Below are positions 29,177 through 46,838 of a stretch of DNA of 64,000 bases, in pieces (position 1 is the first letter of the stretch; every line of letters begins with the position of its first letter). The notes beneath the pieces are model-generated. The model was not told the origin of the DNA. It saw only the letters and a list, made by a program, of their open reading frames with translations, and did not search any database. This DNA comes from a virus: the IMG/VR virus record IMGVR_UViG_3300025727_000603, positions 1 through 64,000 of that record; one strand, written 5' to 3'. A program made the position numbers and the translations under genes.

Positions 29177-32100
29177 ATGGTACATATCCTAGATAAATCG
29201 ACAAGAATTAATGTCACAGAATCAGACACATTTAATGAATGGCGTTTAAAAACAAATGAAATAGGCTCCTTTATTGGTGATAAGCACCATATTGCTAGAT
29301 ATTCTACTATAAATTATGATTGGATTCCTTTATGGACTGATACAGAACTCTTAAACGGGAATGACGAGAATAGAAAACATCCCGATACTAAAGTCCCTTA
29401 CAGGAAAGCTTTGGTTAATATAAAAATACAGGGTATGCATGCTCTAGAGTCAACCTCTACCGAAGATTGGGTCGCTATGCAGACAGAAACTACCCAATCG
29501 ATTATCAAACAAGAAATTGACTTTGGAGGTATGCTCACAGAAGAAAATATTAGAGTTACTATTAAAACACATCAGCCAGGTGCTGTTAATGATGATGATA
29601 GGTATTACTATGGTGATGTTGGTACTGATTACCCTTATGGCTACGCTGATAATGACATTTTAACTATTCGTGGATCGTCTATAGGTGGTGTAGATGGGAT
29701 AAATGATCTTAAGGTTAAGGTGGCAGTGACAGCGAGTCATGTTAATGAGGGTGTTACCTTTAAATATATTAGTAATGTAAAAATTTCAGGTCAGCCTATT
29801 AACGAATCAGAATATGGATCAGACTACATAACTCTGGCATTAACTAAATTACCTCCGGCCTCCATATATAACGAACTTCATCAGATTAGGTCCGATTTAG
29901 CCGGCGAACAGGAAAATCCAAACTTTATTCCTTTTACAAAATTAACAACTAATGCACAAACTATAGCATTAGCTATTAATGAAGTTAATGCAAAAATTCA
30001 AGGTACACAAGGTAATTTAACATTACTTAAAACTATTGATGACGAATTACAATCAATACCTTGGTCTAAATATTATAAACAATATACGATTGATGGTAAT
30101 GGCAATACCACAATCACTGATGGTTATAAAATAGATGATATTGTCTATGTAGACCCAACGATTATAAATGACATCGGGGATACCCTATATTTTAAATCTA
30201 TTACTGAATATAATGTAGACAATCCTGTATCCCGGGATAATGACGGAAACTTTGATCGTAGTTATAATCTAACACAACAAGGTCAGGGTAACCTCGTTGA
30301 AAATGGGGTTCCTGTCGATTCATCAATAACATGGTTTCAAGTTGACAGTACTGTATATTCCTCCATGTCATTGAATAAATCCTTAAATATAGTTAATACT
30401 AGTCTCGGTATTACTAGTAATAACACACTAGCTTCATTAAAAAATAACCATCCTGACTATACCGGCCCACAAGATACTATATATCATTCCCTAAGAAATA
30501 TTGATTCTTATATAGGTAATTACTTAGGACTTAAATCTCAAGTATATAATAGATATGTTAACCCATACCGTACAGTAACATTAGATGGAGTTGCTACTAA
30601 TAATATAGACTATTCTAGTATAGGAACCGGAGATCCTGGTACTATAAAATTACCTACAGGTATGTTGCTTAGTCAGGCCTTTACGGATCCTAACGACTTG
30701 GAATATAATTTCTTACCTGTTGATGCTGACAAAAATGGCCTATATGCGCAATGGACTACACAAGTAACCGAACCCTATCAGTTATACACTAAATCTTATC
30801 ATCCTGATACCAACGTCTTCAACGGTTTTGTTGCAGCAGCTGATGACGACATTGTAGTAGCTCTAACTAAGCTTAGGTTAAGAGTAGATATGCTCACAGA
30901 AGAGATATATCTAACTAAGCGTGACGCAGGAGATAGTTCGGCGGCATGGCAATGGGCTCAGAGAATTACTAAGAGTGATCAATTTGAGAATAACTTTTCC
31001 GGAATGCACGGTATTATTAATATTCTTAAGGGACTAGAAGATCTTGTATCTCCGATTACAGGAGATTCTTTGGATAGAGGGAAACTATCACGTTCTGGGT
31101 TTAAAACAGACTACGCTGATACAGCTGGTTGGGATCAGTCTATACCAACTGGTTCTAAACAAGAGCAGTCACTGACTAATAATATTTATGAAGATTATGA
31201 CTCTTCTCATGTAGAAGGTCCTTTATGGGCTGGCTCCACTGATTCTGATGATAAGCCATTAGGTATTATTGCAGGTAGTATTACACGAATATCGGCGGAT
31301 GGTGGTTATAAACCTCAATACTCATCTGATCTTCTAATACTAAGAACTGCAGGGGTAACTCCTGTTGATGGGACTAGCCACAATAATATTGATTTTCCAA
31401 GCACGGTAACTGGAACCTCTAAATCGGCCGATATTAGGACATTATATCCAGAACGAATAGTTATTAATAACGGTAGTGAAACACAGGTAGCTATAGGTTA
31501 TACTGAAACTGATCGTACAGATACTAATTTCTGGACTAATAACGACAACACATTTATTGACCACTCCAGTAACCCGAGTTGGGTCTGGGAAACCTCCTCT
31601 GGACTAAACTTACTTCAGCAGACAGCTACAGACCAACCAATGAACCTGGATGTTAAGGGGGATATAAGAGCAACTAATAAGATATATATTGGACCTTCTG
31701 ATAACATAAGGTCAATTGACGATTTATACTTATCATCAGGTATTAGAGAAAAGGAAGCGAGTGAAAATGCACCTGTCCAAAATATATTTACTAAACCTAT
31801 TTTCCGTGAAGGTTTAGTAGTCCACTCTGAAAAACCAATGAATGATTGGTATACCTTTACGGAGGATGGAAGAATACAGCCTGATGCTCAACTTCTGCAG
31901 AGAGAAATAGAGGATGTTGTAGGGGCTATGGTTACTGATAAAATCTCTGCAACCGGTACCCCAAGCACTCTTAATATGGAATCTGGTTTAAACGTTCGGT
32001 ATGACAGTCTTAAAGCAGATACTAATAGTGGTCTAAGGTCTCCACATCAAGCAACTTTAAACTTTGAGGTTCATTCACCTGATATTTTAATTACAGGAGA

Positions 32101-33715
32101 TATGTTAGGAAACACCAAGATGATGAGTTTATCCGATGTAGTAATTGATACTCATATCAATAAAGACTCAACGTATATCAAAAAAGTAGTTAAAGAACTT
32201 GTATATGACTCTTTAAATCCAGCTCATTGGGATTCAAGCGTTACAAACAAATATCATGACGGAATATCGGTCACTGATGCTCATAGTGGGATGGCTTCAA
32301 ATAAATACTATCGTGCTATGAAAATGGAACTTTTAGATGGGTTTGTATCTGGTGATACTCTGACATTTCATTACCATGACGGAGAGAATTTAAAAACTAT
32401 TTCCATTTCGGTTCCGGATAACGTATCAACTGGTTTAAATACAAAGGGTATATATCCGGCCGGAGTAATATCACAGGATCAATACAACGATAATCCTGAA
32501 TGGAAAAAAACAGCACGGTTTGGTGCTTCTAAATGGTTATCTCAATATCTTAAAGCAGAGTCTACCCCTGAACTCGCTACCTTTAACAGCTATTGGGATG
32601 TAACCTTCGCAACATACTATGACGGTAATGCTGATGTTGTTCCTGTTATAGTATTTACAGAGAAAAACCCTCTTTCTGTCAGTAATGAAACAAATTCACC
32701 TAACAATCAGTCACAATTGTGGAAACTTGGTCTGGAGTCTACTAACGCTGGTACTATTGCCTCTGGAAATTTTGACAATAGCAATACTGACAAAGTAGCA
32801 TATAATGAGAAATGGCACAGAGATGGCAACTACAATGACGAATTTAATCAATTTGATATATCTAAGGCAAACGATAGCAGTGGAATCTATACCAAAAATA
32901 AAACACCTCAGTATGCAGACAATTATATAACATCAATAGTAAATGTGCAAATTTCTGAACCTGAAATTATTAAAGATGATTTATCAGATACTCCTAAATT
33001 ATCTTTAAATATAGCAGGACAGACATCTACTAACCACATAGGGTCTTTCACACCATCAATAAGTGTTAATTCAAACGGCGTGGCAGAATTAACAATTACA
33101 ACTAGTGAGGATTTGACACCTTGGAAGGACGAGGGATACCTTAAATCGGCACCTAATAATACATACTCGGCAAGCGCTACCGGTCATATGACTAAAAGTA
33201 CAACCCAATGGGCCAGTGGAATTTTTAGCACAGATGCCGAACCTGGTACATCAACTGACTTCAAAGCAGGTAAAATTGTTTCTCGTAATGATTCGGGTGA
33301 CTTCTATGCTAATATTATGAATGGTACAGCAACTAAAGCCCGATATGCAGATTTAGCGGAAAACTATGTTGCTGATAAACAATATGAAGTTGGTACAGTA
33401 TTATCCTTAGGTGGTGAATTTGAGGTTACAGAATCAGATAGGATAATGGATTCTAGAATCGTAGGAGTCGTTTCTGAAAATCCTGCATACTTAATGAATT
33501 CATATTGTACAGGTGAATTTATAGCTACTGTAGCACTAAGAGGAAGAGTACCTGTTAAAGTAGAAGGACCAGTTGATAAAGGTGACATTATTATATCATC
33601 TGGAAGAGGTACAGGAGTTTCTAATAATAACCCTTCATTTGGTTCTATTATAGGAAAGGCTGTAGTATCTAAAACTTCTGAAGGTACCGAGTTAATAGAG
33701 GTAGTTATCACCTAA
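29177..33715 (+). CDS. Long tail fibre with C-terminal self-processing/chaperone-type domain, 1512 aa
   Basis: The protein begins MVHILDKSTRINVTESDTF, has LKTNEIGSFIGD near the N-terminus, and is beta-rich and Asn/Asp/Thr-rich through the middle (about 100-1370). Residues about 1385-1512 (ARYADLAENYVADKQYEVGT, IVGVVSENPAYLMN, VALRGRVPVKVEGPV) match the peptidase-G2/intramolecular-chaperone-like endings common in marine phage fibres. These domains trimerise and may be cleaved off after folding. It is the last tail gene before the accessory island, whose first gene overlaps its stop codon by one base (TAATG). A long tail fibre or side-fibre role is inferred. Confidence 0.75.
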   Translation: MVHILDKSTRINVTESDTFNEWRLKTNEIGSFIGDKHHIARYSTINYDWIPLWTDTELLNGNDENRKHPDTKVPYRKALVNIKIQGMHALESTSTEDWVAMQTETTQSIIKQEIDFGGMLTEENIRVTIKTHQPGAVNDDDRYYYGDVGTDYPYGYADNDILTIRGSSIGGVDGINDLKVKVAVTASHVNEGVTFKYISNVKISGQPINESEYGSDYITLALTKLPPASIYNELHQIRSDLAGEQENPNFIPFTKLTTNAQTIALAINEVNAKIQGTQGNLTLLKTIDDELQSIPWSKYYKQYTIDGNGNTTITDGYKIDDIVYVDPTIINDIGDTLYFKSITEYNVDNPVSRDNDGNFDRSYNLTQQGQGNLVENGVPVDSSITWFQVDSTVYSSMSLNKSLNIVNTSLGITSNNTLASLKNNHPDYTGPQDTIYHSLRNIDSYIGNYLGLKSQVYNRYVNPYRTVTLDGVATNNIDYSSIGTGDPGTIKLPTGMLLSQAFTDPNDLEYNFLPVDADKNGLYAQWTTQVTEPYQLYTKSYHPDTNVFNGFVAAADDDIVVALTKLRLRVDMLTEEIYLTKRDAGDSSAAWQWAQRITKSDQFENNFSGMHGIINILKGLEDLVSPITGDSLDRGKLSRSGFKTDYADTAGWDQSIPTGSKQEQSLTNNIYEDYDSSHVEGPLWAGSTDSDDKPLGIIAGSITRISADGGYKPQYSSDLLILRTAGVTPVDGTSHNNIDFPSTVTGTSKSADIRTLYPERIVINNGSETQVAIGYTETDRTDTNFWTNNDNTFIDHSSNPSWVWETSSGLNLLQQTATDQPMNLDVKGDIRATNKIYIGPSDNIRSIDDLYLSSGIREKEASENAPVQNIFTKPIFREGLVVHSEKPMNDWYTFTEDGRIQPDAQLLQREIEDVVGAMVTDKISATGTPSTLNMESGLNVRYDSLKADTNSGLRSPHQATLNFEVHSPDILITGDMLGNTKMMSLSDVVIDTHINKDSTYIKKVVKELVYDSLNPAHWDSSVTNKYHDGISVTDAHSGMASNKYYRAMKMELLDGFVSGDTLTFHYHDGENLKTISISVPDNVSTGLNTKGIYPAGVISQDQYNDNPEWKKTARFGASKWLSQYLKAESTPELATFNSYWDVTFATYYDGNADVVPVIVFTEKNPLSVSNETNSPNNQSQLWKLGLESTNAGTIASGNFDNSNTDKVAYNEKWHRDGNYNDEFNQFDISKANDSSGIYTKNKTPQYADNYITSIVNVQISEPEIIKDDLSDTPKLSLNIAGQTSTNHIGSFTPSISVNSNGVAELTITTSEDLTPWKDEGYLKSAPNNTYSASATGHMTKSTTQWASGIFSTDAEPGTSTDFKAGKIVSRNDSGDFYANIMNGTATKARYADLAENYVADKQYEVGTVLSLGGEFEVTESDRIMDSRIVGVVSENPAYLMNSYCTGEFIATVALRGRVPVKVEGPVDKGDIIISSGRGTGVSNNNPSFGSIIGKAVVSKTSEGTELIEVVIT

Positions 33716-34461
33716 TGATCGGTATTCTTGGTTATGGTTTTGTTGGGAAAGCAGTTGATAAAGGGTTCACAAAAACAGATAAAATAATATCGGACCCTTT
33801 ATATAATGACGTATCTATTGAAGATATGATGGATACAGAATGTATATTTGTATGCCTTCCAACACCTACAGTAAACGGTAAAATAGAAGCAACAATACTA
33901 TTAAATGCACTCAAGCATCTAGAAGAACTCGAGTACTCTGGTCTTATAATAATAAAATCTACTGTTCTTCCAGACCTAATTAAAGGGTACTCTAATAATG
34001 TAGTATGTGTACCGGAATTCTTATCTAGAGCAACAGCTCACCATGATTTCATTAACCCTCATGTATTAATAATAGGATCAAATTCTATTGTTACATCACA
34101 CCATACTTTAGCTATATTTAAGAAATATTCTGAGGTTTCCACAAAGAATGTACATCTAACAGATATAAAAACAGCTTGTATATTAAAGTATACTATGAAT
34201 ACCTTTAATGCCCTAAAAATAACATATTTAAACGAGATATATAAAGTATGTGGGATAGAGGGTATAGATTACAAAGAAATAGTATCTGTATTAGAGCGAG
34301 TACCGAGAATGGGTACAGGTCTTTTTGATGTTCCTGGTCCAGATGGTAAGTATGGATTTGGTGGTCCGTGTCTTCCTAAAGATGCTGAGTCTTTTGCCTC
34401 TGCATACTCTATGGATTTAGTAAAAGGTATATTAGAGGTTAATTCGTTATTAAGACATTAA
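33715..34461 (+). CDS. Nucleotide-sugar (UDP-glucose/GDP-mannose) dehydrogenase family, short form
   Basis: The Rossmann motif GYGFVGKA lies at residues 6-13, FVCLPTP at about 45-51, and KSTVLPDLIKG and VPEFLSRATA follow. NTFNALKITYLNE (about 162-174) supplies the conserved lysine, and FGGPCLPKD holds the catalytic cysteine (C219). At 248 residues it has the NAD and central domains but lacks the C-terminal UDP-binding domain of full-length enzymes (about 400 or more). The reaction would be oxidation of an NDP-hexose to a uronate. Short versions are known in T4-like marine phages. It shares one base with the fibre stop codon, so it is translated with the tail operon. Confidence 0.82.
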   Translation: MIGILGYGFVGKAVDKGFTKTDKIISDPLYNDVSIEDMMDTECIFVCLPTPTVNGKIEATILLNALKHLEELEYSGLIIIKSTVLPDLIKGYSNNVVCVPEFLSRATAHHDFINPHVLIIGSNSIVTSHHTLAIFKKYSEVSTKNVHLTDIKTACILKYTMNTFNALKITYLNEIYKVCGIEGIDYKEIVSVLERVPRMGTGLFDVPGPDGKYGFGGPCLPKDAESFASAYSMDLVKGILEVNSLLRH

Positions 34462-35438
34462 ATGTTCTATTATCAGAAGGGTGTAATCTAAACTGCTCAT
34501 ATTGTGGAATGGATAAATGGTCTAAAACCACTATATCTCAAGATTCTGTAATAAATAGATTTAAAGAACTTAGACTTGAGTACCCTAATGATCGTATACG
34601 AATAGACTTTTTTGGAGGTGAACCTCTTCTCCAAATGAAGATGGTTAAGTCAATTATATCAAAGATGAAGAAAGTTGATGATAATTATACCTTAGCTATG
34701 CCTACTAATGGGATATCTCTAACACCTGGAATACTAGATTACCTAAAAAAAGAAAAAGTCTCTGTATCTCTCTCATTCGATGGCTTATGGCAAAACGATA
34801 GGAGACCTATTAGAGATTCCAATCTATCTTCTTTAAATGTACTGTACGCTAAACGAAAATTGTTTTCTGGATTAAAATGTCATTCTATGATATCCGGATC
34901 TGACTATAATTTACTAGAAAATCATTTATATATAACTCAAAATTTTGGGATGAATCCTGAACTAACATTAGTTAGGGATAGAGGGACATGGACACCAGAA
35001 TCAGTTAAACTTCTTCAGATCGGTATTAACGAAATTTATGAGTGGTACAAAAATAATCTCTCTGAAGATATGCCTAATTTTATATTATTCTGGCTTCGCG
35101 ATATATTAAGATATCATTATAAAGGATTTACAGTTGAAGGATGTGGTGTAGGAAGAGATCTTCATGCATTAACAGAGACTGGAGAGTCCGTTACATGTGA
35201 CAGATTTGCTGGGGATAAAGAAGCAGTTGAGAAGATAAATGAGTTTTACTCTATGCCTGAATGCTCAACTTGTCGTGTAAAGAATTATTGTCATAAAGGT
35301 TGTATGTATGAACAAATTAAGTCAAATGGGCCAATCCCTGAACTTTGTGATATATATAAGTATTGTTATGATAAAACAAAAGAAATACTACCCCTGATAC
35401 CTAAAGATATAATAAGGAGAGAATTGAATGATTCATGA
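34449..35438 (+). CDS. Radical SAM/SPASM peptide-maturase-type protein (start corrected to ATT)
   Basis: The first ATG (34509) would remove the radical SAM cluster. Upstream in frame the sequence reads MKTLNVLLSEGCNLNCSYC if translation starts at ATT 34449. An AGAGG lies ten bases before it and the in-frame TAA at 34440 bounds the frame. C12, C16 and C19 bind the [4Fe-4S]/SAM cluster, and GGEP lies at about 56-59. The C-terminus is a textbook SPASM domain: C232-x12-G-x4-C250, then C-x2-C-x5-C-x3-C and a final cysteine near 307. SPASM enzymes modify peptides (thioether or carbon-carbon crosslinks) or mature sulfatases. At 329 residues it is compact. It overlaps the upstream gene by 13 bases. 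Confidence 0.85.
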   Translation: MKTLNVLLSEGCNLNCSYCGMDKWSKTTISQDSVINRFKELRLEYPNDRIRIDFFGGEPLLQMKMVKSIISKMKKVDDNYTLAMPTNGISLTPGILDYLKKEKVSVSLSFDGLWQNDRRPIRDSNLSSLNVLYAKRKLFSGLKCHSMISGSDYNLLENHLYITQNFGMNPELTLVRDRGTWTPESVKLLQIGINEIYEWYKNNLSEDMPNFILFWLRDILRYHYKGFTVEGCGVGRDLHALTETGESVTCDRFAGDKEAVEKINEFYSMPECSTCRVKNYCHKGCMYEQIKSNGPIPELCDIYKYCYDKTKEILPLIPKDIIRRELNDS

Positions 35439-35658
35439 TATTACTGATATTAATCAGATTAATACAAGATTATTGAAGACTGTTACACACCTGATAGATG
35501 CGTCTAAATATCTTTCGGATATACCTGAATTTCAAGAAGAATCCTATAAAATTGCTCTTCTGGCAAAATGTTTTATTGATGTAGTCGAACCTCAAAAAGA
35601 AAAAATTACAGAAGAAACAATTAATTCTATACTAGATGAGATATTAAATGCTCAATAA
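35428..35658 (+). CDS. Small helical protein between two radical SAM/SPASM genes, unassigned
   Basis: The 76-residue protein is mostly helical by composition (TRLLKTVTHLIDASKYL, YKIALLAKCFIDVV, ETINSILDEILNAQ), with one cysteine and no membrane segment. It has a good AAGGAG Shine-Dalgarno and overlaps both neighbours by 11 bases, so it is translated in step with the two SPASM enzymes. It could be a substrate-recognition or chaperone partner, as small RRE-type proteins are in RiPP operons. No RRE winged-helix pattern is evident, and it is not a cysteine-rich precursor. Confidence 0.65.
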   Translation: MIHDITDINQINTRLLKTVTHLIDASKYLSDIPEFQEESYKIALLAKCFIDVVEPQKEKITEETINSILDEILNAQ

Positions 35659-36784
35659 TAAAAGACAACAATTTACGTTTGAAATTACAACTACTGCTCT
35701 CTGTAATATGAATTGTACATATTGCTTTGAAGGTCTAAAAACAGATAAGCGTACTTTAAACAATGTACAGGTTTCTGTATTAAAGTCTAAAATAGAGGAA
35801 ATATTAAAATCCAATTGGTTTTTAAGAGATTATGGAGTCCTTAATATATCATTTTGGGGTGGAGAACCTACATTAAATGGACCATTAATTGTTGATATGA
35901 TGAATACATTCGAGCTAAATGATTCTGTAACCTATCATATATATACTAATGGACTAGATAGAAAGAAACTTGATTATGTACTTGATTCAGTATCTACAGA
36001 TAAACTTGCAATTCAGGTATCTTGGGATGGTGATGTCATTAATAAAAAGTATAGAGTTCAGGGAGTAGATAAAGATACAACTGCACGAGTACTTAATAAT
36101 TTAGAGTATCTAATAGAAAGGGGTATAAACGTCTCAATGAAAGCTACAATACCTCTAGAGTCTATGGACGATATTGAAGAAACATGGGATTCATACAAAA
36201 CTTTATATGACAAATTAGGGTCTAGAGCTAATATATCTTATGCCCCTACAATAGATTATGTAAATGAATTACCTGAGGAGACCCAAGAAGCTTCAATAGC
36301 TACATTTAGATCAGCTATGATTAGAGTAGCAAAAAAGGAATTAGAATTTTATAAAGAGCATAATCATTTTTTATGCTCTTGGTTTGACGGTAATGAGCAG
36401 AAAGTACATTGTTCCTCGGGTGCTAATATGGTTGCTATAGATGTAACGGGTAAGTCTTATGCGTGTCATGGTTCATTATATTCTCCTAATAAAGAATCAA
36501 TGGGTTCAGGATCTATAACAGATGCTGAGTGGGTTAAGAATTTAGGTTCTGAAACTAAAAAATATAAAAAGGCTATTAAAACTGTACCTGAAACATGTGT
36601 AGATTGTGTTGCAACAACTTGTATGATTTGCCCTGTATCTTCCTTAGATAATTCAAAAAAATCAGATTTTATGGATAGGTGGACTGATAGATATATAAAT
36701 AATATGTGTGGGTATTTTAAAACATTTGGTGAAATAGACCGAGCGGTTGTAACCAAAATAAACAGAGAAAGAGAAGAGGCATAG
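35648..36784 (+). CDS. Radical SAM/SPASM protein, second copy
   Basis: The 378-residue protein has the cluster motif LCNMNCTYC (C19, C23, C26), then FWGGEPTLNG at about 74-83. The C-terminal SPASM-like region has C255-x12-G268-x4-C273, then C-x2-C-x4-C-x2-C near 318-329 and a last cysteine in NNMCGYF. The spacing is slightly different from the textbook SPASM of the first enzyme, suggesting a specialised auxiliary-cluster arrangement. It is followed after three bases by the cysteine-rich protein, its most likely substrate. The family acts on peptides via the 5'-deoxyadenosyl radical. Confidence 0.88.
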   Translation: MLNNKRQQFTFEITTTALCNMNCTYCFEGLKTDKRTLNNVQVSVLKSKIEEILKSNWFLRDYGVLNISFWGGEPTLNGPLIVDMMNTFELNDSVTYHIYTNGLDRKKLDYVLDSVSTDKLAIQVSWDGDVINKKYRVQGVDKDTTARVLNNLEYLIERGINVSMKATIPLESMDDIEETWDSYKTLYDKLGSRANISYAPTIDYVNELPEETQEASIATFRSAMIRVAKKELEFYKEHNHFLCSWFDGNEQKVHCSSGANMVAIDVTGKSYACHGSLYSPNKESMGSGSITDAEWVKNLGSETKKYKKAIKTVPETCVDCVATTCMICPVSSLDNSKKSDFMDRWTDRYINNMCGYFKTFGEIDRAVVTKINREREEA

Positions 36785-36787
36785 ACT

Positions 36788-37576
36788 ATGACAAATACAT
36801 ACGGGACATCAACCTTTATACCAGAAGATAAGTGGCATACAGCTTCGACCGGTGGAAACGAATACAAATCAGTCAGTTCTACTTGTAGCGGTCATAGAGC
36901 TAATAATTCCCACAATAATGTAGACTGGAACCTATTTGGGACTGACACAATAATCAGCATAGGTGATTATAATACTATATACGATGCTGTTCAGACAGAA
37001 CTAGAAGAATGGTTAGCGTTTAAAAACTACAGTGGTACAAAGACATATTCGGATCTAAAAGGTTATAGAAATGTAGGTTCCAGAAAAACAACAGATAGTG
37101 TAATAGACGATCAAGATCTTGTCGCTATCCATTCTATATTAGAGGCTATACTTGGAGAAAACGGAGCAAAACATACAAACACTAATTATGGAAATAGCGG
37201 TCAAGCTAACCGAATAGGTACGGGATGGACTAACAGCTCAGGTACTGCTCCTACATCAACAAAAACAAGCGCTGAGAAAGTTAAAATCACTGATGTTACC
37301 TCTACTGCTATTAGAAAAGGTGCTGTTAAAGGGGCGGGCATGATTGAAAAATCGTATAGTTCAGAATTTGGTGGTAAGGTAGAAGGTACGCTTATTCAAA
37401 ACGAATTCTACAATCCAACTGGTGCAGCTGAGTTTGATGGAAAAACGAGATGGGCAGACAATTCCATTGAGGAAAAATTTAACCGATGTCGTAGTAATTG
37501 TATTTGCGATTCTGATTGTGCCTGTAATGCTGTTTGTAATTGTAACAATAACTGTGATTGTAATTATACTCAATAG
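36788..37576 (+). CDS. Cysteine-rich hexad-repeat protein, candidate substrate of the SPASM enzymes
   Basis: Residues 1-225 are polar and virion-like: GDYNTIYDAVQTELEEW at about 60-76, then Gly/Ser/Thr-rich segments. Residues 234-258 hold nine cysteines in an exact alternating spacing, C-x3-C-x1 repeated, with Asn/Asp/Ser between them (for example CNAVCN, CNNNCD), ending NYTQ. Only one other cysteine (about residue 33) occurs in the protein. RiPP precursors put the modified core at the C-terminus after a leader, as here, but 230 residues is a very long leader. A phage virion protein carrying a modifiable tip fits the size better. I recall phage structural proteins with CNCNY-type tails but cannot search. 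Confidence 0.75.
   Translation: MTNTYGTSTFIPEDKWHTASTGGNEYKSVSSTCSGHRANNSHNNVDWNLFGTDTIISIGDYNTIYDAVQTELEEWLAFKNYSGTKTYSDLKGYRNVGSRKTTDSVIDDQDLVAIHSILEAILGENGAKHTNTNYGNSGQANRIGTGWTNSSGTAPTSTKTSAEKVKITDVTSTAIRKGAVKGAGMIEKSYSSEFGGKVEGTLIQNEFYNPTGAAEFDGKTRWADNSIEEKFNRCRSNCICDSDCACNAVCNCNNNCDCNYTQ
37487..37573 (+). repeat. 18-base coding repeat producing the C-x3-C-x cysteine hexads
   Basis: Four full hexads plus one partial are encoded in an 18-base period, each starting with TGT or TGC and with a second cysteine codon 12 bases later. The third-base differences between units show that it is maintained at protein level rather than being a recent DNA duplication. Confidence 0.8.
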
Positions 37577-37588
37577 GAGATGAAATAA

Positions 37589-38203
37589 ATGATGATATAT
37601 AATATGGCACTAGTGACAGATAAAGGAACACATTTTGAGATAAATGGGGTTACAACTAACGTAGCCTCTAATATAAAAAACAAAGAAGAGCACTATCTTA
37701 ATCTTTCTTCAAAAGCAGCAGAAATTATTAAGGAAGCATTAAACTCTGGTAATAATAGAATTAATGTCTATAAACCATTAAAGTCTATGGAAGTTTTACC
37801 GGGAGAAGTTATTATAGAGGATATAGATCCAGAAGATATCAGAAATGTTAAATCGTCAGAGATTAAAAGAATCAGGGTCCTAATAACACCCGAACTAGCT
37901 TCCATTTCAGGTATAGCACTCTATTCATGGATTATGCTTAATAATGAACTAAATTCTAAAGGATACTTTATATATGATGGTAATAGAGAAGAAGTATACC
38001 TAAGTATATTAGAAACTGGTGATGAAGAGCTTATTAACAAGCTGGAAGAATATTTAAATTATAAAGATGAGATTGCTAGAGTAGCTCAATTAAATTCTAA
38101 ATTTTCTAATATTATTAAAGAAATAATGACTCTTACAGATAAAGATGAGATTATTGAGAAAGCTAACAAATTTATAGAAAATTATATGAAGTTAAATGAT
38201 TAA
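37589..38203 (+). CDS. Unassigned protein of the radical SAM island, 204 aa
   Basis: No family was recognised. The N-terminal half (MALVTDKGTHFEINGVTTN, LSSKAAEIIKEAL) is mixed alpha/beta; the C-terminal third (about 140-204) is charged and helical, possibly coiled coil (ELINKLEEYLNYKDEIARVA). There is no signal peptide, transmembrane segment or cysteine. It follows the cysteine-rich protein after a strong TAGGAGAT Shine-Dalgarno and precedes two GT-like genes by two bases. A scaffold, leader-recognition or virion accessory role are all possible. Confidence 0.6.
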   Translation: MMIYNMALVTDKGTHFEINGVTTNVASNIKNKEEHYLNLSSKAAEIIKEALNSGNNRINVYKPLKSMEVLPGEVIIEDIDPEDIRNVKSSEIKRIRVLITPELASISGIALYSWIMLNNELNSKGYFIYDGNREEVYLSILETGDEELINKLEEYLNYKDEIARVAQLNSKFSNIIKEIMTLTDKDEIIEKANKFIENYMKLND

Positions 38204-38976: not shown

Positions 38977-39929
38977 GTAAAATACTACAATTACCTAAAG
39001 AATATGAATTATGGTTGACTTATTCATGGAGTAATGACAACCACGGCATATGTGGTCATACTTTTGAAGTCATTGATTACTACCATATATTAAAAAACCA
39101 TTTTAAAGTTGGTATATTATTAGCTGAAGATATAGATATGAATATGTTTGTTCAGGCTATTCAAGAGAAATACGATTTTAATACTGATGAACTTAAAGAT
39201 ATAAAGCGAAATACTCTTTTTAAAAAGAGACCTAGACTAGTATCAGGATCTAATATTATCTTTACTGATGGTGGTGTATTATCAACAAAAGATAGTACAT
39301 TACTATTTGATAATATCTTTCATATGGCTTGTGGTGATAAAGAAATAAAAGATAATACAAAAGAAAATGTGTGGATACTTCAAGATGATAGAGTTTATGA
39401 CCCAGTAACTCTTAATGGTATTAATTACAAAAAGAAGATACTATTTTCTAGATTAAAACGACTTAAACGACCTGCATTATTCCCTGGCTGGTTAAGAACT
39501 ATTATGCTATATTCTACTAAGAATTGTCGTAATATTCCAGAAGCTCAAATTAAAAAAATATCTAATAAGTATAAAGGATATCATATAATGGTGCTTACTA
39601 ACTCAGAAAATAAAGGTAAAGACTCTGAGTGGATTAAATATTATGAAGTACCTACAAAGGATCTATTTAATCGGTTTATTATGTATTATTATACACCTAT
39701 AGAAAGGAAGCATGATTGTTCTCCTAGGTTTATAGCTGAGTGTAGGTATTATAATAAACAAGTTGTATACGATTCTAAAATAAACGATGAGTATCTTCAG
39801 ACGGACTTAGGGTTAAAGTATAGAATGCAGGATATTGAAGAGGACTTTGAGTCTTTATACTTAGAGGAAAATGATGACATAATTAATATTATTAAGAATA
39901 TTATATATAATGAGCCCAATAAACTATAA
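38973..39929 (+). CDS. Second glycosyltransferase-like protein, 318 aa, tentative
   Basis: LWLTYSWSNDNHGICGHTF at the N-terminus is followed by alternating alpha/beta structure. YTPIERKHDCSPRFIAECRYYNKQVVYD (quoted in two parts: YTPIERKHDCSP, then RFIAECRYYNKQVVYD; about 240-267) looks like the donor-binding region of GT-B glycosyltransferases, where a selected acidic residue and an EC/EA helix precede a 'different strand'. It forms a pair with the preceding gene and overlaps the next radical SAM gene by 20 bases. The acceptor cannot be predicted. Confidence 0.4.
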   Translation: MSKILQLPKEYELWLTYSWSNDNHGICGHTFEVIDYYHILKNHFKVGILLAEDIDMNMFVQAIQEKYDFNTDELKDIKRNTLFKKRPRLVSGSNIIFTDGGVLSTKDSTLLFDNIFHMACGDKEIKDNTKENVWILQDDRVYDPVTLNGINYKKKILFSRLKRLKRPALFPGWLRTIMLYSTKNCRNIPEAQIKKISNKYKGYHIMVLTNSENKGKDSEWIKYYEVPTKDLFNRFIMYYYTPIERKHDCSPRFIAECRYYNKQVVYDSKINDEYLQTDLGLKYRMQDIEEDFESLYLEENDDIINIIKNIIYNEPNKL

Positions 39930-40956
39930 CATTGTATCACATCATAAGATTCAGCCTGAAAATAAAGACAAACTATGTTCAAGAGCTAAGTTAGACACAG
40001 GTACTCATTGTAATTATGACTGTGAGTTCTGCTATTACGGAGAACAACTCCATATTCGTACTGATACTGATGTTATAAAGAAACGTATTGATTATCTCTG
40101 GGATACAGGTATGGAAGAAATAGACTTCTCTGGAGGGGAATCTTCTATACATAAAGACTTTTTTGAGCTAATACAATATACCAAAGATAAAGGTTTCTCT
40201 AACATATCTACACTATCTAATGGACACAAATTCTCCAAGATTGACTTTATGCGCAAGGCCTATGATGCTGGCCTAACAGAAATATTATTTTCTGTTCACG
40301 GCGCTAATGGAAGTATACATGATAAAATAGTAAGACGATCAGGAGCATTTAATCGTATTATTAAAGCTATTAATCTCTGTAGAGAAGTAGGTATTAAAGT
40401 TCGTATCAATACTACTGTTACTATGGAAAACTTTACTGCTTTATCAGAATTCTCTACACTAATTCAAAGTCTCGATGCTGATGTATTTGAGGTTAACTAC
40501 TTACCCCTAAATCATTGGGATGACGCTAAGACACAGATACCATTAGATTATAATGTAGTATGTACTGAAATAAAAAAGTCTATTGACATACTTAAATCAG
40601 CAGTTAAAATAATTAATGTTAGATATACTCCATACTGTTACATGGGAGGGTATGAGAAATATGTATGCTCTACATATCAACATATATGGGATGTCTATGA
40701 TTGGAATATCGGGGTATATGACTATTCTGTTGATCCTCAGGTATATAAAAAAGATCCTCTAAAACATCTACTTAAAGTAGCTAAAGAAAATAGAAATCAA
40801 ACATATATGAAACCTAAATCATGTATGGGATGTAAGTATTTTTTTATATGTGATGGTATTGAGACTGAAAATAACTCTACTCTACCCTTAGCAATAAAAG
40901 GTGAATTGATATATAATCCTATACATTATCGTAAAGGATATTATGAATCTATTTGA
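39910..40956 (+). CDS. Radical SAM protein with shortened C-terminal cysteine domain
   Basis: C34, C38 and C41 (HCNYDCEFCYYGE) form the SAM-cluster motif. FSGGESSIHKDF replaces GGEP; TLSNGH and SVHGANGSIHDKIV are further barrel strands. At the C-terminus a CMGCKYFFICDG stretch (about 311-322) gives C-x2-C-x5-C, a twitch/SPASM-like half. It is 348 residues and resembles MoaA/PqqE-like enzymes in layout. It overlaps the GT-like gene by 20 bases and the next radical SAM gene by 14. The substrate is unknown. Confidence 0.82.
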   Translation: MSPINYNIVSHHKIQPENKDKLCSRAKLDTGTHCNYDCEFCYYGEQLHIRTDTDVIKKRIDYLWDTGMEEIDFSGGESSIHKDFFELIQYTKDKGFSNISTLSNGHKFSKIDFMRKAYDAGLTEILFSVHGANGSIHDKIVRRSGAFNRIIKAINLCREVGIKVRINTTVTMENFTALSEFSTLIQSLDADVFEVNYLPLNHWDDAKTQIPLDYNVVCTEIKKSIDILKSAVKIINVRYTPYCYMGGYEKYVCSTYQHIWDVYDWNIGVYDYSVDPQVYKKDPLKHLLKVAKENRNQTYMKPKSCMGCKYFFICDGIETENNSTLPLAIKGELIYNPIHYRKGYYESI

Positions 40957-42004
40957 ATTAATACCAACAGATGAGTATCCTACATTCGACTTTAAAGTTA
41001 CATTAAAACCCTCATTTAGATGTAATCAAGCTTGTTGGTTCTGTACTGAATATGATAATAATTCGTATGAATGGTCAAAAGTGGATTGTAATAAAGTATT
41101 AGATAAGCTTGATAATGTATTAAAACCTTATCAATCTATTTTTATATACTTCTATGGTGGTGAGCCTACTCTATCTAAATATTATGAGTATCTACATTAT
41201 GAGATTACTAGAAGACACAGACATAAAAAATTATTTATACAGACACAAACTAATGGTTCTATGGAGACTGAGAGGTTAAAAACTTTTCTTAATACATTAG
41301 AATTATATGATGGGCATACATTAGATATATCAACTTCTGTACATCTTAATAAACAGAAGATTGAAAATCTAATAGATAAGCTTAAAATATTAAGAGAGTA
41401 TAATGTACTAGGTAATATATTTCCTTCTACTGAATACCTTCATGAAGAACAATTTATAGAAGAGTTGAAGTTAATGATACAGGAATTTGATAATAAAGTC
41501 AAGATAAAATTCACAGAAATTGGTTTAGGAGTTATTAATTCAAGAGAAGCTCAATTATATCCTTTGGATCAAGGTGATATTAAATCATTTGAATTTAGAT
41601 ATTTTACACAGAAATATCCTTTTCTACTTAATCATCTTGAAGAGGGATTTAATTTTCAGGTAGATGATAAGGTTGTTAACTATTCTATGGTGAAAGCTAA
41701 TGATATACATAAACAAGTGAGATTTATGAAGTGTGAGTGCGGCACTAAGAATCTTGTTATAGACCATAACCTAAAGATGTATAGGTGTAATGACGACTTT
41801 TATAACAACATAGGTATACAAGATATAACAGAGGATATAGAGATAAAAAATAAGTATTGTCTTAATAAGGCTTGTTATGATGGTCTAGAGTTTAGGAAAT
41901 GGAAACCTATCACTATACAACCTCAGAAGGATATACCAGAATTTTGTAAACCATGTACCTCGGCATATTGTTCATATAATTGTAGGAGAGATAATAATGA
42001 ATAA
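40943..42004 (+). CDS. Radical SAM protein with C-terminal cysteine cluster
   Basis: C27, C31 and C34 (RCNQACWFC) are followed by FYGGEPTLSKYYEYL (about 72-86) and QTQTNGS. The C-terminus contains several pairs (MKCECGTKN, YRCNDD, then CKPCTSAYCSYNC), suggesting one or two auxiliary clusters. It is 353 residues with a Shine-Dalgarno AAAGGA. The next radical SAM gene starts eight bases before its stop. No closer subfamily could be named. Confidence 0.82.
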   Translation: MNLFELIPTDEYPTFDFKVTLKPSFRCNQACWFCTEYDNNSYEWSKVDCNKVLDKLDNVLKPYQSIFIYFYGGEPTLSKYYEYLHYEITRRHRHKKLFIQTQTNGSMETERLKTFLNTLELYDGHTLDISTSVHLNKQKIENLIDKLKILREYNVLGNIFPSTEYLHEEQFIEELKLMIQEFDNKVKIKFTEIGLGVINSREAQLYPLDQGDIKSFEFRYFTQKYPFLLNHLEEGFNFQVDDKVVNYSMVKANDIHKQVRFMKCECGTKNLVIDHNLKMYRCNDDFYNNIGIQDITEDIEIKNKYCLNKACYDGLEFRKWKPITIQPQKDIPEFCKPCTSAYCSYNCRRDNNE

Positions 42005-42842
42005 AGATTGTATTCAGGAACTAGAAATTGATTTAATTGATGCCTGTAACCTATCATGCCCTTTATGTAATAGGAATGTATTAAAGTCTAAAGATGGTTA
42101 TATCCCTTTAGATGAATGGATCTCTATTTTTGATCAGTACAAATATCTAAAGGCTATATTCCTCATTGGAACTAGATCTGAACACACATTATATCCAGAA
42201 TTTTTAAACCTCATGAGGTACTTTAAGAGTAGAGGATTATCAATTATTATATCGACTAATGGTTGTACTAATAAATTAAATTTTTGGTCTGAATTAAAAG
42301 ATATACTACAAGTCGAAGATGAAGTTCGATTTGCCGTTGATGGTATTACCCAAGATATATATGAGCAATATAGAGTTGGTGGTAATCTAGAAAAATTAAT
42401 GAATAATCATAAAGCTTTTAAATCAGAGAAAGATAATGATATAATGCAATATATTAGATTTGAGCATAACCAGCATGAAGACATTACTGAGTTCCTTCAG
42501 CAGTTCTCTGGATTAAGAACTACTAATTCCTCTTTTGAAGGTAATCATGATGGTTCTATTGTTAAACAAACTCCTCAGGATTCTAAGAGATATAACTTAG
42601 TTACAAAAATTATACGGAATAGAAAACCAAATATAAGCTGTGAAACTAAGGGTAAGATGCACTTTATTAACCACAGAGGTCAGACTTCTCCTTGTTGTTA
42701 TTATAATGAAGATGTTGTACTTCAGGGTGGTGAATGGGATGGGACATATGAAGATATTGAAGCAGCTAAATTTGACTTTTGTACAATAATGTGTGATAAG
42801 TTTTGTACGAATCTGTTAAAGTCGTTAGATATAGAATTATGA
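41997..42842 (+). CDS. Radical SAM protein, variant lacking GGEP
   Basis: C17, C21 and C24 lie in ACNLSCPLC. The usual GGEP strand is replaced by FLIGTRSEHTLYPEFL (about 55-70), which has lost the glycine-glutamate pair. STNGC and FAVDGITQDIYEQYRVGG follow, as in MoaA-type and tungsten-cofactor-like enzymes. The C-terminal region has SPCCYY and a final CTIMCDKFC. It is 281 residues. The altered second motif may change SAM binding or indicate divergence. It is coupled to the GT2 gene by an ATGA overlap. Confidence 0.78.
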   Translation: MNKDCIQELEIDLIDACNLSCPLCNRNVLKSKDGYIPLDEWISIFDQYKYLKAIFLIGTRSEHTLYPEFLNLMRYFKSRGLSIIISTNGCTNKLNFWSELKDILQVEDEVRFAVDGITQDIYEQYRVGGNLEKLMNNHKAFKSEKDNDIMQYIRFEHNQHEDITEFLQQFSGLRTTNSSFEGNHDGSIVKQTPQDSKRYNLVTKIIRNRKPNISCETKGKMHFINHRGQTSPCCYYNEDVVLQGGEWDGTYEDIEAAKFDFCTIMCDKFCTNLLKSLDIEL

Positions 42843-43402
42843 GAGTATCTATATTAATACTAACACATAATAGACCTCTCTTATTTAAGCGGTGTATTTC
42901 ATCAGTATTATTAAATAAACCAGAGAATGTAGAAATATTAGTTAATAATGATTCAAAAGATATAAAGGAGATTGCTGGTGCGACATATTATTATAAAACT
43001 CATTCGGATCTAAGTGATACTTATAAGTATCTATTTAATAAGGCCTCAGGTGAATTTATATATTTTTTAGAAGACGATGATTATGTATCTTCTGACTTTT
43101 GGAAGATACTATCTCAGGTTAAAGAGAATACAGTATTTAGATATATCCCTGAGAAGAGTATTAAGTTATACTATGAATACTTTATACATAACCCTTCATT
43201 TGAAGAACATTTTCAATTAGGGCAACTGGTATTTAAAAAGAAATCATTAACCTCCTTTCCAAAAGGTAATAATATACACAATGATTATCAACTATATAAA
43301 TCTCTTTCGGGTTCGATAATGAATGATCGAAGACCAATTTATACACAAACTACTGATGGTAACGACAATATAAGTTTTGATGAATATCCAGAAACAATAT
43401 GA
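42839..43402 (+). CDS. GT2-family glycosyltransferase, short
   Basis: The start is placed at the ATG overlapping the upstream TGA (ATGA), which gives MRVSILILTHNRPLLFKRCI directly; a longer in-frame start at 42803 adds 12 unlikely residues. The GT-A fold motifs are ILTHNRP, then VEILVNNDS (donor binding), then FIYFLEDDDYVSSDF with the metal-binding DxD. At 187 residues it is about the minimum for a GT2 catalytic domain. It transfers a sugar from an NDP donor to an unknown acceptor. It is embedded between radical SAM genes. Confidence 0.82.
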   Translation: MRVSILILTHNRPLLFKRCISSVLLNKPENVEILVNNDSKDIKEIAGATYYYKTHSDLSDTYKYLFNKASGEFIYFLEDDDYVSSDFWKILSQVKENTVFRYIPEKSIKLYYEYFIHNPSFEEHFQLGQLVFKKKSLTSFPKGNNIHNDYQLYKSLSGSIMNDRRPIYTQTTDGNDNISFDEYPETI

Positions 43403-44327
43403 TGTAAAGCATAAAATGCAAAGACTCTATGTACATTGGGATGTATCTACTCAATGTCAATTAGAGTGTTCGTATTGTTATGCCATAAAAGACTATGGTT
43501 CAGAGTGGGGTAATATTGATTCATGGGTACGTCAAAAGTTAGTAATTAGGAATATAGCCCACTCAACTCTTCCTGTCTTTCTTGGCCTCCTAGGAGGTGA
43601 ACCTACAATACATCCTCGTTATAATGAGTTAGTAGCTCTTTGCCATGAAGCTATATCTAAACACAAAGATGGTAGACTATATATTACTACTAATGGTTTA
43701 AATCCTACTCGTTGGTTTGAGAAATTAAAGTACTATGATAATATGTATTTTTTATGGTCAGCTCATTTCGAATATGAAGATAAATATGGTACTGGGTTTC
43801 AAAGGATTATAGATAATATAAAGGTGGTAACAGACAAAGGGTTTAGATCTAAGATAAATGTAATGTTAAATCCTGACCCAAAAACTTGGCCTAAGATACA
43901 TGCTCTGGTAGACCAATTAGAAAAGATAGAGGGTCTAGAGATACATCCACATTTCTTATATAACGAGGGGAATGTACATGATCTTTATAAATATTCACCT
44001 GAGTTTTATGAAGAGTTTAAGAGATTTGAGGATTATCCCAATTATCTAGTGTTTGAGGATAATGGTGAAAAGACTATATATAATGACTACACCATATTTA
44101 ATAATAAGAAGACTTCATTTACTGGATGGGATTGTTACAATAATAACTATGAAATTGATTATAAAGGAAGTGTAAATAGATTCTGTTTTGATGAGTCAGA
44201 TGATCTAATTACTAACTTTAACTTTTTTCGTGACATAGGAAAGGTGACACCAGTTAAATGTCCCCACTCAACATGCAACTGTGATGGATTACTAAAGATA
44301 TGCAAAGTGAATCGAAAAAACTTGTAA
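43380..44327 (+). CDS. Radical SAM protein with CDGLLKI C-terminal tail
   Basis: The start is taken at the ATG 43380 (a TTG lies three bases upstream). QCQLECSYC gives C26, C30 and C33; LLGGEPTIHPRYNELV and ITTNGL follow. A central GWDCYNNNYEIDYKG begins the terminal cysteine section, which ends in VKCPHSTCNCDGLLKICK. The same CDGLLKI tail recurs in the unrelated-looking protein at 45214-45963. It overlaps the GT2 gene by 23 bases and the next radical SAM gene by 28. The substrate is unknown. Confidence 0.82.
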   Translation: MNIQKQYDVKHKMQRLYVHWDVSTQCQLECSYCYAIKDYGSEWGNIDSWVRQKLVIRNIAHSTLPVFLGLLGGEPTIHPRYNELVALCHEAISKHKDGRLYITTNGLNPTRWFEKLKYYDNMYFLWSAHFEYEDKYGTGFQRIIDNIKVVTDKGFRSKINVMLNPDPKTWPKIHALVDQLEKIEGLEIHPHFLYNEGNVHDLYKYSPEFYEEFKRFEDYPNYLVFEDNGEKTIYNDYTIFNNKKTSFTGWDCYNNNYEIDYKGSVNRFCFDESDDLITNFNFFRDIGKVTPVKCPHSTCNCDGLLKICKVNRKNL

Positions 44328-45217
44328 AGTCCGGCCGAGCAAAAGCTGATGTCTATATTGGGTATGATATAACTTATAGATGTAATTTAAGATGTGAGTA
44401 TTGTTATGTACTACATAAGCTTGATAACAAATTAACGGGTAACAAGTTTATAGCTACCATGGTTTTATTAAAATTAAAACGATTTCTCTCAGAGAATAAA
44501 GATAAAACTGTAGAATTTGATATTTTAGGAGGTGAGCCTTTATCGTTCGAGGGACTTACTGAATATGTACATAAACTAGAAGATATTCGACTAGAATATA
44601 ACAATCTTAAAATTATAACAATTACAACTAACGGAGTATTCCCTACACTCCCTAATTTTAATGATATTGAATATAATAATAATATTCAATTTCAGGTGTC
44701 GTATCATAACTACTCAAATAATATCAAACTTTTAAAGGAGAACCTACTAAAGTTTCTAAGAATTACAGATCTAGTTACATTAACAATTCATTTATATGAT
44801 GATAAATTAAGAATTCAAGAGATTAGAGATATTATAGAGTTCTGTAATTCTAATCATATACATACTTGTACTATAGATATTAACGACCTTGGTAATGATT
44901 TTAAAATGGTAAATAATTCTGTATTCACTGAGATATCAGACTTAACTTCTCTAGATAATATTAAAAATTATCAAGTAGGTAACACAGAGATGTCAAGAAA
45001 GAATATACATGACATAAACTGGATAAAGGACTCAATGAAATACTGTAATCTTTCTTGTTTTAATATAGATTACTACGGTGACATTACAGCGGATTGTAAT
45101 TATACTTTAGATAGAAAAAATATTACAACATCTGATATAGAACTCTATAAAGTATACTGTAAACATATATCGTGTATGGGTGGTTCTGGTTTAGACCAGA
45201 AGAAGGAATATGTATGA
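44300..45217 (+). CDS. Radical SAM protein
   Basis: YRCNLRCEYCYVL supplies C28, C32 and C35. ILGGEPLSFEGLTEYV (about 75-90) and ITITTNG are the next barrel motifs. The C-terminus has YCNLSCFNIDYYG, TADCNYTLD and YCKHISCMGG, i.e. three cysteine pairs that could bind auxiliary clusters. It is 305 residues. It is coupled by a four-base ATGA overlap to the following gene and looks like a paralogue of the preceding radical SAM protein. Confidence 0.82.
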   Translation: MQSESKKLVKSGRAKADVYIGYDITYRCNLRCEYCYVLHKLDNKLTGNKFIATMVLLKLKRFLSENKDKTVEFDILGGEPLSFEGLTEYVHKLEDIRLEYNNLKIITITTNGVFPTLPNFNDIEYNNNIQFQVSYHNYSNNIKLLKENLLKFLRITDLVTLTIHLYDDKLRIQEIRDIIEFCNSNHIHTCTIDINDLGNDFKMVNNSVFTEISDLTSLDNIKNYQVGNTEMSRKNIHDINWIKDSMKYCNLSCFNIDYYGDITADCNYTLDRKNITTSDIELYKVYCKHISCMGGSGLDQKKEYV

Positions 45218-45963
45218 TAATTAACCAGCTTAAACTATATAGGCGATGGGAACGTATAATGTCTAAGGGTCATTCTCTATCTCCCACGATGTTTAGTCTA
45301 AAGAAAACACTCTACTTTAATAATAAAGTATCAAAACTTCTATATAAAGACACAGGTGTGTTGGTTGACGTAAAATCAATTATTCCTTTAGTAAGTCATG
45401 AAAACAAGTTTACATATAATTGTGTCATTAACTCTAAAAAATATGTATTAAAGAATGAGCTACGGCGTAATATAGAATCAACTCTTATATATCAATTTTA
45501 CTATTTTGATAAATTGAAAAAGAGATATCCATTTGTTTTTGAGAGATTTAGGACAAAGGAAGATGTTCTAAAGTATAATTCGATTAAGGCAAAAGAATTA
45601 ATTAATTTTATAGGCTCCTACGAATACTCTATACAAGAACACCTTCCAGAGTTATTAGAGGAAACTGATAATTTTTTTGTATTTAAATACTATGATATTA
45701 TAGAGTATTCAGAGGATGAATATAAGAATAATATGCATACCTTATTAAATATATTTAATAATGATATTGTACCTATAGTTTTAGCGCGCCAGAATGTCGC
45801 GAAGTTAGTAGACTCAGATAAGTTTATAATGTATGATATTGATATATTAAATAAAGATCCTATAATTAATTGGCCACGCGAGGGAGTTTGTACGATAGCT
45901 CCCTCTGGAATGGATGATAACAATTGTGATGGTCTTCTCAAAATATATAAGGAGAAGAAATGA
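45214..45963 (+). CDS. Unassigned protein with possible kinase-like layout and CDGLLKI tail
   Basis: The start is the ATG overlapping the upstream TGA, after AGAAGGA; a longer in-frame start 14 residues upstream lies inside the radical SAM gene. KKYVLKNELRRNIESTL (about 84-100) and FIMYDIDIL (about 205-213) vaguely recall the Lys/Glu and Asp-x-Asp elements of kinase/aminoglycoside-phosphotransferase folds, but no HxDxxxxN loop is clear. The end (NNCDGLLKIYKEKK) nearly repeats the tail of the radical SAM protein at 43380. It is 249 residues. Function is open. Confidence 0.5.
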   Translation: MIINQLKLYRRWERIMSKGHSLSPTMFSLKKTLYFNNKVSKLLYKDTGVLVDVKSIIPLVSHENKFTYNCVINSKKYVLKNELRRNIESTLIYQFYYFDKLKKRYPFVFERFRTKEDVLKYNSIKAKELINFIGSYEYSIQEHLPELLEETDNFFVFKYYDIIEYSEDEYKNNMHTLLNIFNNDIVPIVLARQNVAKLVDSDKFIMYDIDILNKDPIINWPREGVCTIAPSGMDDNNCDGLLKIYKEKK

Positions 45964-46838
45964 AAATACAGGTTAAATTAGCTGGTGCGGTATCTCATTA
46001 TAATTTATTTAAATTATTAAAAAAATCTATTCAGAGGTATCAAGGGATATTTGATTTTACTGTTTATGATGCACCCAATCTTTGTAAATGGAATGCTGGT
46101 CGTGTAAATCGTGATATAACAATAACGCCGGAAATGGTAAGGTGGTATAATGACGCAGGGATAGGGGTGGCATTTACATTCACAAATGATATTATTGATG
46201 TCACTGATCCGGTGGGTATTGACTTATTAGAGATGCTTGATCACAATCCATTGAATTCTATAATACTAATAAACGATGACTTCAGGGAATTTTTGCGTGA
46301 GTCATACCCAAAATATAAATTAACTTTCTCTATTACTGGGCATCCGAATGATATAACTATAACAAATAAATTATTACAACATTATCTCAATTTAGAATCT
46401 AAGTATGATGTTATTGTTCCTAGATTTGAAATGACCTTTAATTCAGAATTTCTTTCGGCCATTGATTCTAAAAAATATGAACCTATAACAAATGACACTT
46501 GCATATATGGATGTAATATATTGAGAGAGCATATGTCTACCATAGCAGATAAGAATAGGATGTATGATAACCCTTGGGTAGACATGGAACATGGTGAGGC
46601 ATTTAAGGTAGAGGAGTGTTGGATAAAACATTTTGATCCTGATGTCGGGTCAGATAAAGATAGAGAAGAATATGGAGAAGAACTTGGGATGGATTTTACA
46701 AAGAGTATGTATACAAGGGCTCTAAAATCTGGGTATCGTAGATTTAAAGTTATGGGCCGTGAACTTGGTAGTTTAGAACTTCGTACTGAAATTATAAACA
46801 ATCTTAAATTATTAAAAGAAGCATATGAAGAAATCTAA
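45960..46838 (+). CDS. Unassigned alpha/beta protein, possibly TIM-barrel/U32-like
   Basis: MKIQVKLAGAVSHYNLFKLL opens a regular strand-helix series, with LCKWNAGRVN (about 40-49), GIGVAFTFTNDI, NSIILINDDFREFL, YKLTFSITGHPNDI and FKVMGREL near the end. The order of strands and the CIYGCNI and EECWIKHF cysteines recall peptidase U32/YhbU-like barrels, some of which are radical-independent partners in RNA or cofactor modification. The resemblance is weak. It overlaps its neighbours by 4 and 14 bases, within the radical SAM run. Confidence 0.45.
   Translation: MKIQVKLAGAVSHYNLFKLLKKSIQRYQGIFDFTVYDAPNLCKWNAGRVNRDITITPEMVRWYNDAGIGVAFTFTNDIIDVTDPVGIDLLEMLDHNPLNSIILINDDFREFLRESYPKYKLTFSITGHPNDITITNKLLQHYLNLESKYDVIVPRFEMTFNSEFLSAIDSKKYEPITNDTCIYGCNILREHMSTIADKNRMYDNPWVDMEHGEAFKVEECWIKHFDPDVGSDKDREEYGEELGMDFTKSMYTRALKSGYRRFKVMGRELGSLELRTEIINNLKLLKEAYEEI

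Follow-up and report, generated by a model that had tools for sequence, protein, structure and literature searches.

A cysteine ladder next to two radical SAM genes

The window analyzed here is a stretch of 64,000 nucleotides (positions 1 to 64,000) from the 79,310-base viral record IMGVR_UViG_3300025727_000603, whose source is a T4-like myovirus. Proteins of the baseplate hub and wedge are encoded at 1-16 kb and very large ORFs at 16-34 kb, followed by an island with eight radical SAM genes and then by further structural proteins. The features under consideration are as follows.

33715..34461, plus strand: nucleotide-sugar dehydrogenase-like gene, given as context, which heads the cassette in several relatives
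34449..35438, plus strand: rSAM1, the second PapB-like radical SAM/SPASM enzyme (PapB 4e-27; 5wgg 6.1e-12)
35428..35658, plus strand: small all-helical protein of 76 aa, putative substrate-binding partner, found just 5' of rSAM2 throughout the hexad group
35648..36784, plus strand: rSAM2, radical SAM/SPASM enzyme of 378 aa, putative maturase paired with the tail protein (PapB NF047865 1.1e-21; 5wgg 7.5e-13)
36788..37576, plus strand: Cys-ladder protein of 262 aa, candidate tail tip, with a variable body (residues 1-224) and a constant tail (225-262) ending in CDCNYTQ, without S74
37487..37561, plus strand: the Cys ladder, residues 234-258, putative modified core of nine Cys with 4,2 spacing
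37589..38203, plus strand: 204-aa protein of unassigned function, with similar-sized relatives 1-2 genes past the Cys protein at most hexad loci

The 262-aa protein contains ten cysteines, namely Cys33 and those at residues 234, 238, 240, 244, 246, 250, 252, 256 and 258, the last nine being spaced 4,2,4,2,4,2,4,2. The exact nine-cysteine alternation at the C-terminus (residues 234-258, 4,2 throughout) that a first-pass annotation of this DNA had described is thus confirmed, as are the radical SAM/SPASM neighbors it had reported: rSAM2 ends at 36784, leaving a gap of 3 bases, and the second gene ends at 35438, upstream of the 76-aa ORF. Other open frames of at least 60 aa in the window hold a maximum of 6 Cys per 27 residues. 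Residues C238, C240, D243, C244, V249, C250, C252, C256, C258, N259 and Y260 are invariant in 12 aligned homologues. Relative to locus L002, DNA identity is 100% in the ladder region, 99.6% in rSAM2 and 86% in the body (residues 1-224), and the Cys-protein gene as a whole differs at 55 codons non-synonymously and at 15 synonymously. Another 11 phages have the same Cys register behind bodies that differ greatly, and in each of them the gene lies directly 3' of an rSAM2 homologue. Because the tail DNA is identical to that of L002 while the body has diverged, and because the register recurs in those 11 phages, the ladder is not due to chance. A fast-changing body combined with a constant tail and constant enzymes would fit a protein for host recognition whose processed tip is shared. 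The AlphaFold model of the protein was unusable (mean pLDDT 48). A comparable pattern of body and tail is seen in the 1512-aa protein encoded at 29177-33715, the DNA of which is 87% identical between strains and the C-terminus of which is still conserved in L131 despite a much shorter body there.

Both enzymes carry the CxxxCxxC cluster motif (CNLNCSYC in rSAM1, CNMNCTYC in rSAM2) and match Pfam PF04055 (4.6e-13 and 1.4e-12, respectively). SPASM cysteines were assessed as CX9-15GX4C, then CX2CX5CX3C, then C. Those of rSAM1 are canonical; rSAM2 has C255-x12-G-x4-C273, a slightly shorter CX2CX4CX2C (C317-x2-C-x4-C-x2-C328) and C354. PapB (NF047865) is the top NCBIfam match of both enzymes, at 95.3 bits for rSAM1 and 77.5 bits for rSAM2, and because these scores lie far below the curated cut-off of 340 we refer to the enzymes as PapB-like and not as PapB. 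Among the NCBIfam maturase families shown, neither enzyme reaches a cut-off; the QhpD model is one of their better matches. The nearest solved structure for both is 5wgg, which we take to be CteB, and the alignment spans most of rSAM2. With 18 residues ahead of its first cluster Cys, rSAM2 is without an N-terminal RRE-like extension.

The rSAM1 gene overlaps the 3' end of the dehydrogenase gene, and its listed ATG (34509) is downstream of its CxxxCxxC motif. There is no ATG, GTG or TTG ahead of the cluster motif at 34449-34464, and the start codon of relatives beginning 'MKTLLxVLSExCNLNC' aligns to ATT at 34449; a rare ATT start is therefore likely. L131/L141 has the same start arrangement.

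The predicted structure of the 76-aa protein consists of three helices (pLDDT 87) and is not a winged helix, and a fold search with it returned nothing below E 1.6. Neither a leader peptide nor an RRE was identified; the enzymes have no N-terminal extension and the small partner is predicted as three helices. No protease or exporter was recognized among the neighboring genes scanned.

Elsewhere in the island, six more radical SAM genes are located at 39910-47679 (starts 39910, 40943, 41997, 43377, 44300 and 46825), and a regex search found the complete SPASM signature in none of the six. Relatives of the ORFs at 38206 and 38973 recur within the same island, the latter also having a homologue in Campylobacter phages. 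A tryptophan-halogenase-like flavoprotein is encoded at 48307-49548 (PF04820, 2.8e-64). Beside it, in the region 47690-52077, are two ORFs that align to distinct portions of transketolase, a pair of epimerase-like ORFs and a PIG-L deacetylase; L137 contains similar transketolase-, epimerase- and PIG-L-like ORFs.

Co-occurrence of ladders and enzymes among phages

A profile built from rSAM2 and three homologues retrieved 33 viral loci, and a Cys-repeat ORF was present in the fetched stretch at 29 of them: 12 with hexads (such as CICNSDCSCNNVCSCHNDCGCNY), 12 with heptads (CNCNYCTCNCNY and so on) and 5 with other registers (e.g. CSCNATCYGY in L168). The four enzyme-bearing records in which no Cys repeat was found are L154, which is an 8.6 kb fragment, L159 and L160, which represent one virus, and L170. 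The tail alone led to L137, a 13th hexad locus, in which the small protein and rSAM2 again lie immediately upstream. At all 13 hexad loci the Cys protein is directly 3' of rSAM2 (the two genes overlap slightly or are no more than 34 bases apart), the commonest gene order being rSAM1, small protein, rSAM2, Cys protein. These 13 loci form one clade on the rSAM2 tree (support 100/99), so that the substrate register follows the enzyme lineage; the pattern would fit enzyme/substrate co-evolution, and shared descent alone could produce it. Several hexad Cys proteins have a common N-terminal Cys/His motif (like CSGSHCSNHGTGTSTCSNHRGTCSTNR), of which the window retains only TCSGHR, at 36881-36898. This motif may be a metal-binding site, a second modified site or an enzyme-binding site.

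The reverse search used a DNA pattern for CNCNYCxCxC, blind to the enzymes, and gave 60 viral stretches, in which a script accepted 44 Cys-repeat ORFs. Radical SAM genes are present in the stretch for 36 of the 44, and for 2 of the other 16 matches (Fisher P = 1.5e-6). This P value is to be taken as only indicative, because three of the 16, L208, L212 and L217, are real repeats truncated by the end of the stretch, and there are many close relatives among the 44. Searches of whole records located radical SAM genes for 6 of the other 8, raising the count to 42/44 Cys-repeat records. The two records without them, L190 (22.7 kb) and L193 (16.1 kb), are fragments with the same Cys protein, and in L239, their relative from a Chloroflexi MAG, an rSAM gene lies 3.2 kb downstream. 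All three genome contigs with clear matches (L235, L239 and L247) contain a radical SAM gene. In L247, from Clostridium rectalis, a prophage-like tail module has, in a row, a Dit-like gene, a prophage endopeptidase tail gene, an rSAM gene with SPASM and the Cys protein. The proposed pairing of substrate and enzyme thus emerges from the forward and the reverse search alike, in highly diverse phages. Occurrence of the same Cys register apart from radical SAM genes, which the first-pass annotation had named as evidence against its reading, is limited to the two fragments of 16-23 kb and does not refute it.

Across 273 heptad units of the form C-x1-C-x2-[YHF], x1 is Asp or Asn in 237 (87%) and x2 in 264 (97%), a composition consistent with the prediction that Asp/Asn are acceptors of Cys bonds. 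Other Cys-repeat registers (CSCNATCYGY and the like) are located near weaker rSAM2 relatives at L265:732-1289, L169:13120-14757, L171:708-1448 and L165:496-894, and are a possible third class. A seven-Cys DNA pattern searched across viral contigs was uninformative, its matches being nearly all low-complexity or in the wrong frame.

Cultured phages are represented by the Campylobacter Firehammervirus group, in which 15 of 15 records contain an rSAM2 homologue (27-31% identity) and, likewise in 15 of 15, a 534-aa protein with CDCNYCT heptads. In CP220 these are gp136 and gp140, respectively, with three genes between them. Neither the window's Cys protein nor a marine heptad protein gave a tblastn match against cultured phages. 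Timms et al. (2010) described 11-12 radical SAM genes in CP220/CPt10, which they took to boost host metabolism, as well as a 21-bp repeat located inside a coding sequence (PMC2853527). The present analysis links the repeat and the radical SAM genes to each other. The CP220 homologue of the Cys protein is not among the gel-identified virion bands listed in that report.

The S74 chaperone and the position of the ladder

In 15 distinct proteins the ladder is followed directly by a full-length stretch of the Peptidase_S74 type, which is the self-cleaving chaperone of tail fibers and spikes (PMC4728585). The Pfam match begins at profile position 1 in all 4 such proteins tested, and the ladder often continues straight into 'SDERLK', the start of S74. 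The window protein has no Peptidase_S74, which is present in homologues with the same ladder; it is one of 14 other proteins that stop 0-4 residues past 'CNY', at the point where S74 would start. Since S74 begins right after the ladder and the versions lacking it stop there, the tail protein, once mature, probably has the ladder as its C-terminal tip. The known S74 cut is after Ser.

A further 18 proteins end 12-15 residues past CNY ('SDERLKTNIxxL'). In the cases tested (L155, L235, L202, L214, L164 and, weakly, L185) the S74 match of the following ORF starts at about position 16-20. Judged by sequence, the stub of 12-15 residues and the next ORF carrying the remainder (Pfam about 16-55) are a split chaperone, in many relatives. 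The loci are L185:4721-7545, L155:8162-9040, L202:539-1407, L214:5417-6315, L235:2165-3047 and L164:8046-8854. Because L185 has four tandem Cys-tip proteins followed by one small S74-remainder ORF, it is suggested that one chaperone part serves several tips in trans.

The ladder could remain unmodified, its CxC pairs binding metal or forming disulfides in a trimeric tip and the radical SAM genes serving some other purpose. Regular CxC pairs just ahead of S74 would suit a trimeric needle, and the context is T4-like; in T4 itself, HxH motifs at the gp37 tip bind iron. We nonetheless regard an unmodified ladder as unlikely, for it leaves unexplained both the SPASM maturase-like enzymes found beside ladders in either search direction and the match between register and clade. 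It is still harder to accept the Cys protein as the precursor of a free antimicrobial or signal peptide, with no place in the virion. The enzymes do resemble RiPP maturases and the window protein is without S74, yet its homologues are fused to a tail-fiber chaperone and sited in tail or baseplate modules, their bodies are large and variable, and the neighborhood scan recognized no gene for processing or export. Least probable is an auxiliary metabolic or glycan role for the radical SAM genes, which would merely share a host-recognition island with tail proteins: the six further radical SAM genes and the sugar-nucleotide, transketolase-like and halogenase-like genes of the window, the proposal of Timms et al. 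and the gain of radical SAM cassettes by pelagimyophage host-recognition clusters (PMC7029224) speak for it; against it stand the tight gene order, in which rSAM2 and the Cys protein stay neighbors in phages that have diverged widely, the prophage-like tail module from Clostridium, and the PapB/CteB affinity with SPASM motifs. The judgment against auxiliary metabolism applies to rSAM1 and rSAM2 only. All three alternatives are weaker because the two-way association is left unexplained.

A proposed crosslinked tail tip and its relation to known systems

We give a probability of about 0.73 to the reading that the Cys protein is a tail-tip protein of the receptor-binding type, that its ladder is the substrate of the adjacent PapB/CteB-like enzymes and that the helical protein is a likely substrate-presenting partner. 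This reading draws on the anatomy of the protein and its variable body, the co-occurrence, the position of S74 and the SPASM motifs. The interpretation offered in the first-pass annotation is therefore supported in its testable parts, including assignment to the tail, for which the relatives with Peptidase_S74 right after the ladder and the Clostridium contig with tail genes, rSAM and Cys protein in a row both speak; the peptide 'rod' it envisaged is unsupported. The gene partnership is observed and from it we infer the chemistry, by which phages probably build chemically stapled tail tips for gripping hosts.

In the proposed sequence of events, the ribosome would make the tail protein, to which the helical partner and the enzymes would bind. 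The ladder would then be crosslinked, probably by thioethers between ladder Cys and neighboring Asp/Asn, giving a stiff and resistant distal tip that would trimerize with the help of S74 where present. In S74-bearing relatives the chaperone would cut itself off after ...CNCNYS and leave the ladder as the mature C-terminus, and for the window protein translation would simply stop where S74 would begin. The particle would thus display a stapled receptor-binding tip on a body that varies between strains. With less confidence, we lean towards an unrecognized and widespread class of phage adhesin, with a radical-SAM-crosslinked Cys-ladder tip, dedicated enzyme cassettes, swappable bodies and, in some lineages, tandem tips sharing a split S74 in trans.

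If true, this would help to explain why some phages, such as CP220/CPt10 with their 11-12 enzymes, carry so many radical SAM genes, and it would represent a novel means of making a receptor-binding tip stable, for which cultured phages allow a direct test. Protein stapling would gain maturases that work on C-terminal tags of large, varied proteins. Secreted peptides and a few enzyme subunits are known to be crosslinked by radical SAM enzymes. For virus particles, searches of open-access PMC turned up no such report, nor any literature linking radical SAM enzymes to Cys-repeat tail proteins. The proposed chemistry is of a known kind in a setting that we could not find described there.

The closest comparison is with PapB/PapA (freyrasin), a ranthipeptide system that shares regularly spaced Cys with nearby Asp, SPASM motifs and the top NCBIfam match. 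Ranthipeptides are defined by a thioether from Cys to a non-alpha carbon. PapB joins Cys to Asp/Glu via thioether bonds, and it accepts Cys-Xn-Asp for n = 0-6 (PMC9413430). However, the candidate substrate here is a phage tail protein of considerable size (about 125-534 aa) and not a small leader-bearing peptide, two enzymes and a small helical protein are present, and the Asp/Asn near Cys in the window do not form the regular CX3D/E core of PapB. CteB/SCIFF (thermocellin) is related through 5wgg, the nearest structure for both enzymes, but neither a SCIFF peptide nor the N-terminal RRE-like extension is found here. In the QhpD/QhpC system of quinohemoprotein amine dehydrogenase, thioether bonds are installed in a protein subunit, although that is a single bacterial enzyme subunit as opposed to a repeat ladder on a phage tip. 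In two-enzyme sactipeptide systems such as thuricin CD, two radical SAM enzymes jointly act on Cys-containing substrates (PMC12093266), which are unrelated here, being small antibiotic peptides. Finally, Peptidase_S74 fibers and spikes (T5 Ltf, endosialidases) have the same C-terminal self-cleaving chaperone (PMC4728585) that directly follows the ladder in many relatives, and differ from the present proteins in that the latter have a Cys ladder at the putative mature tip, with S74 missing in the window and split over two genes in many relatives.
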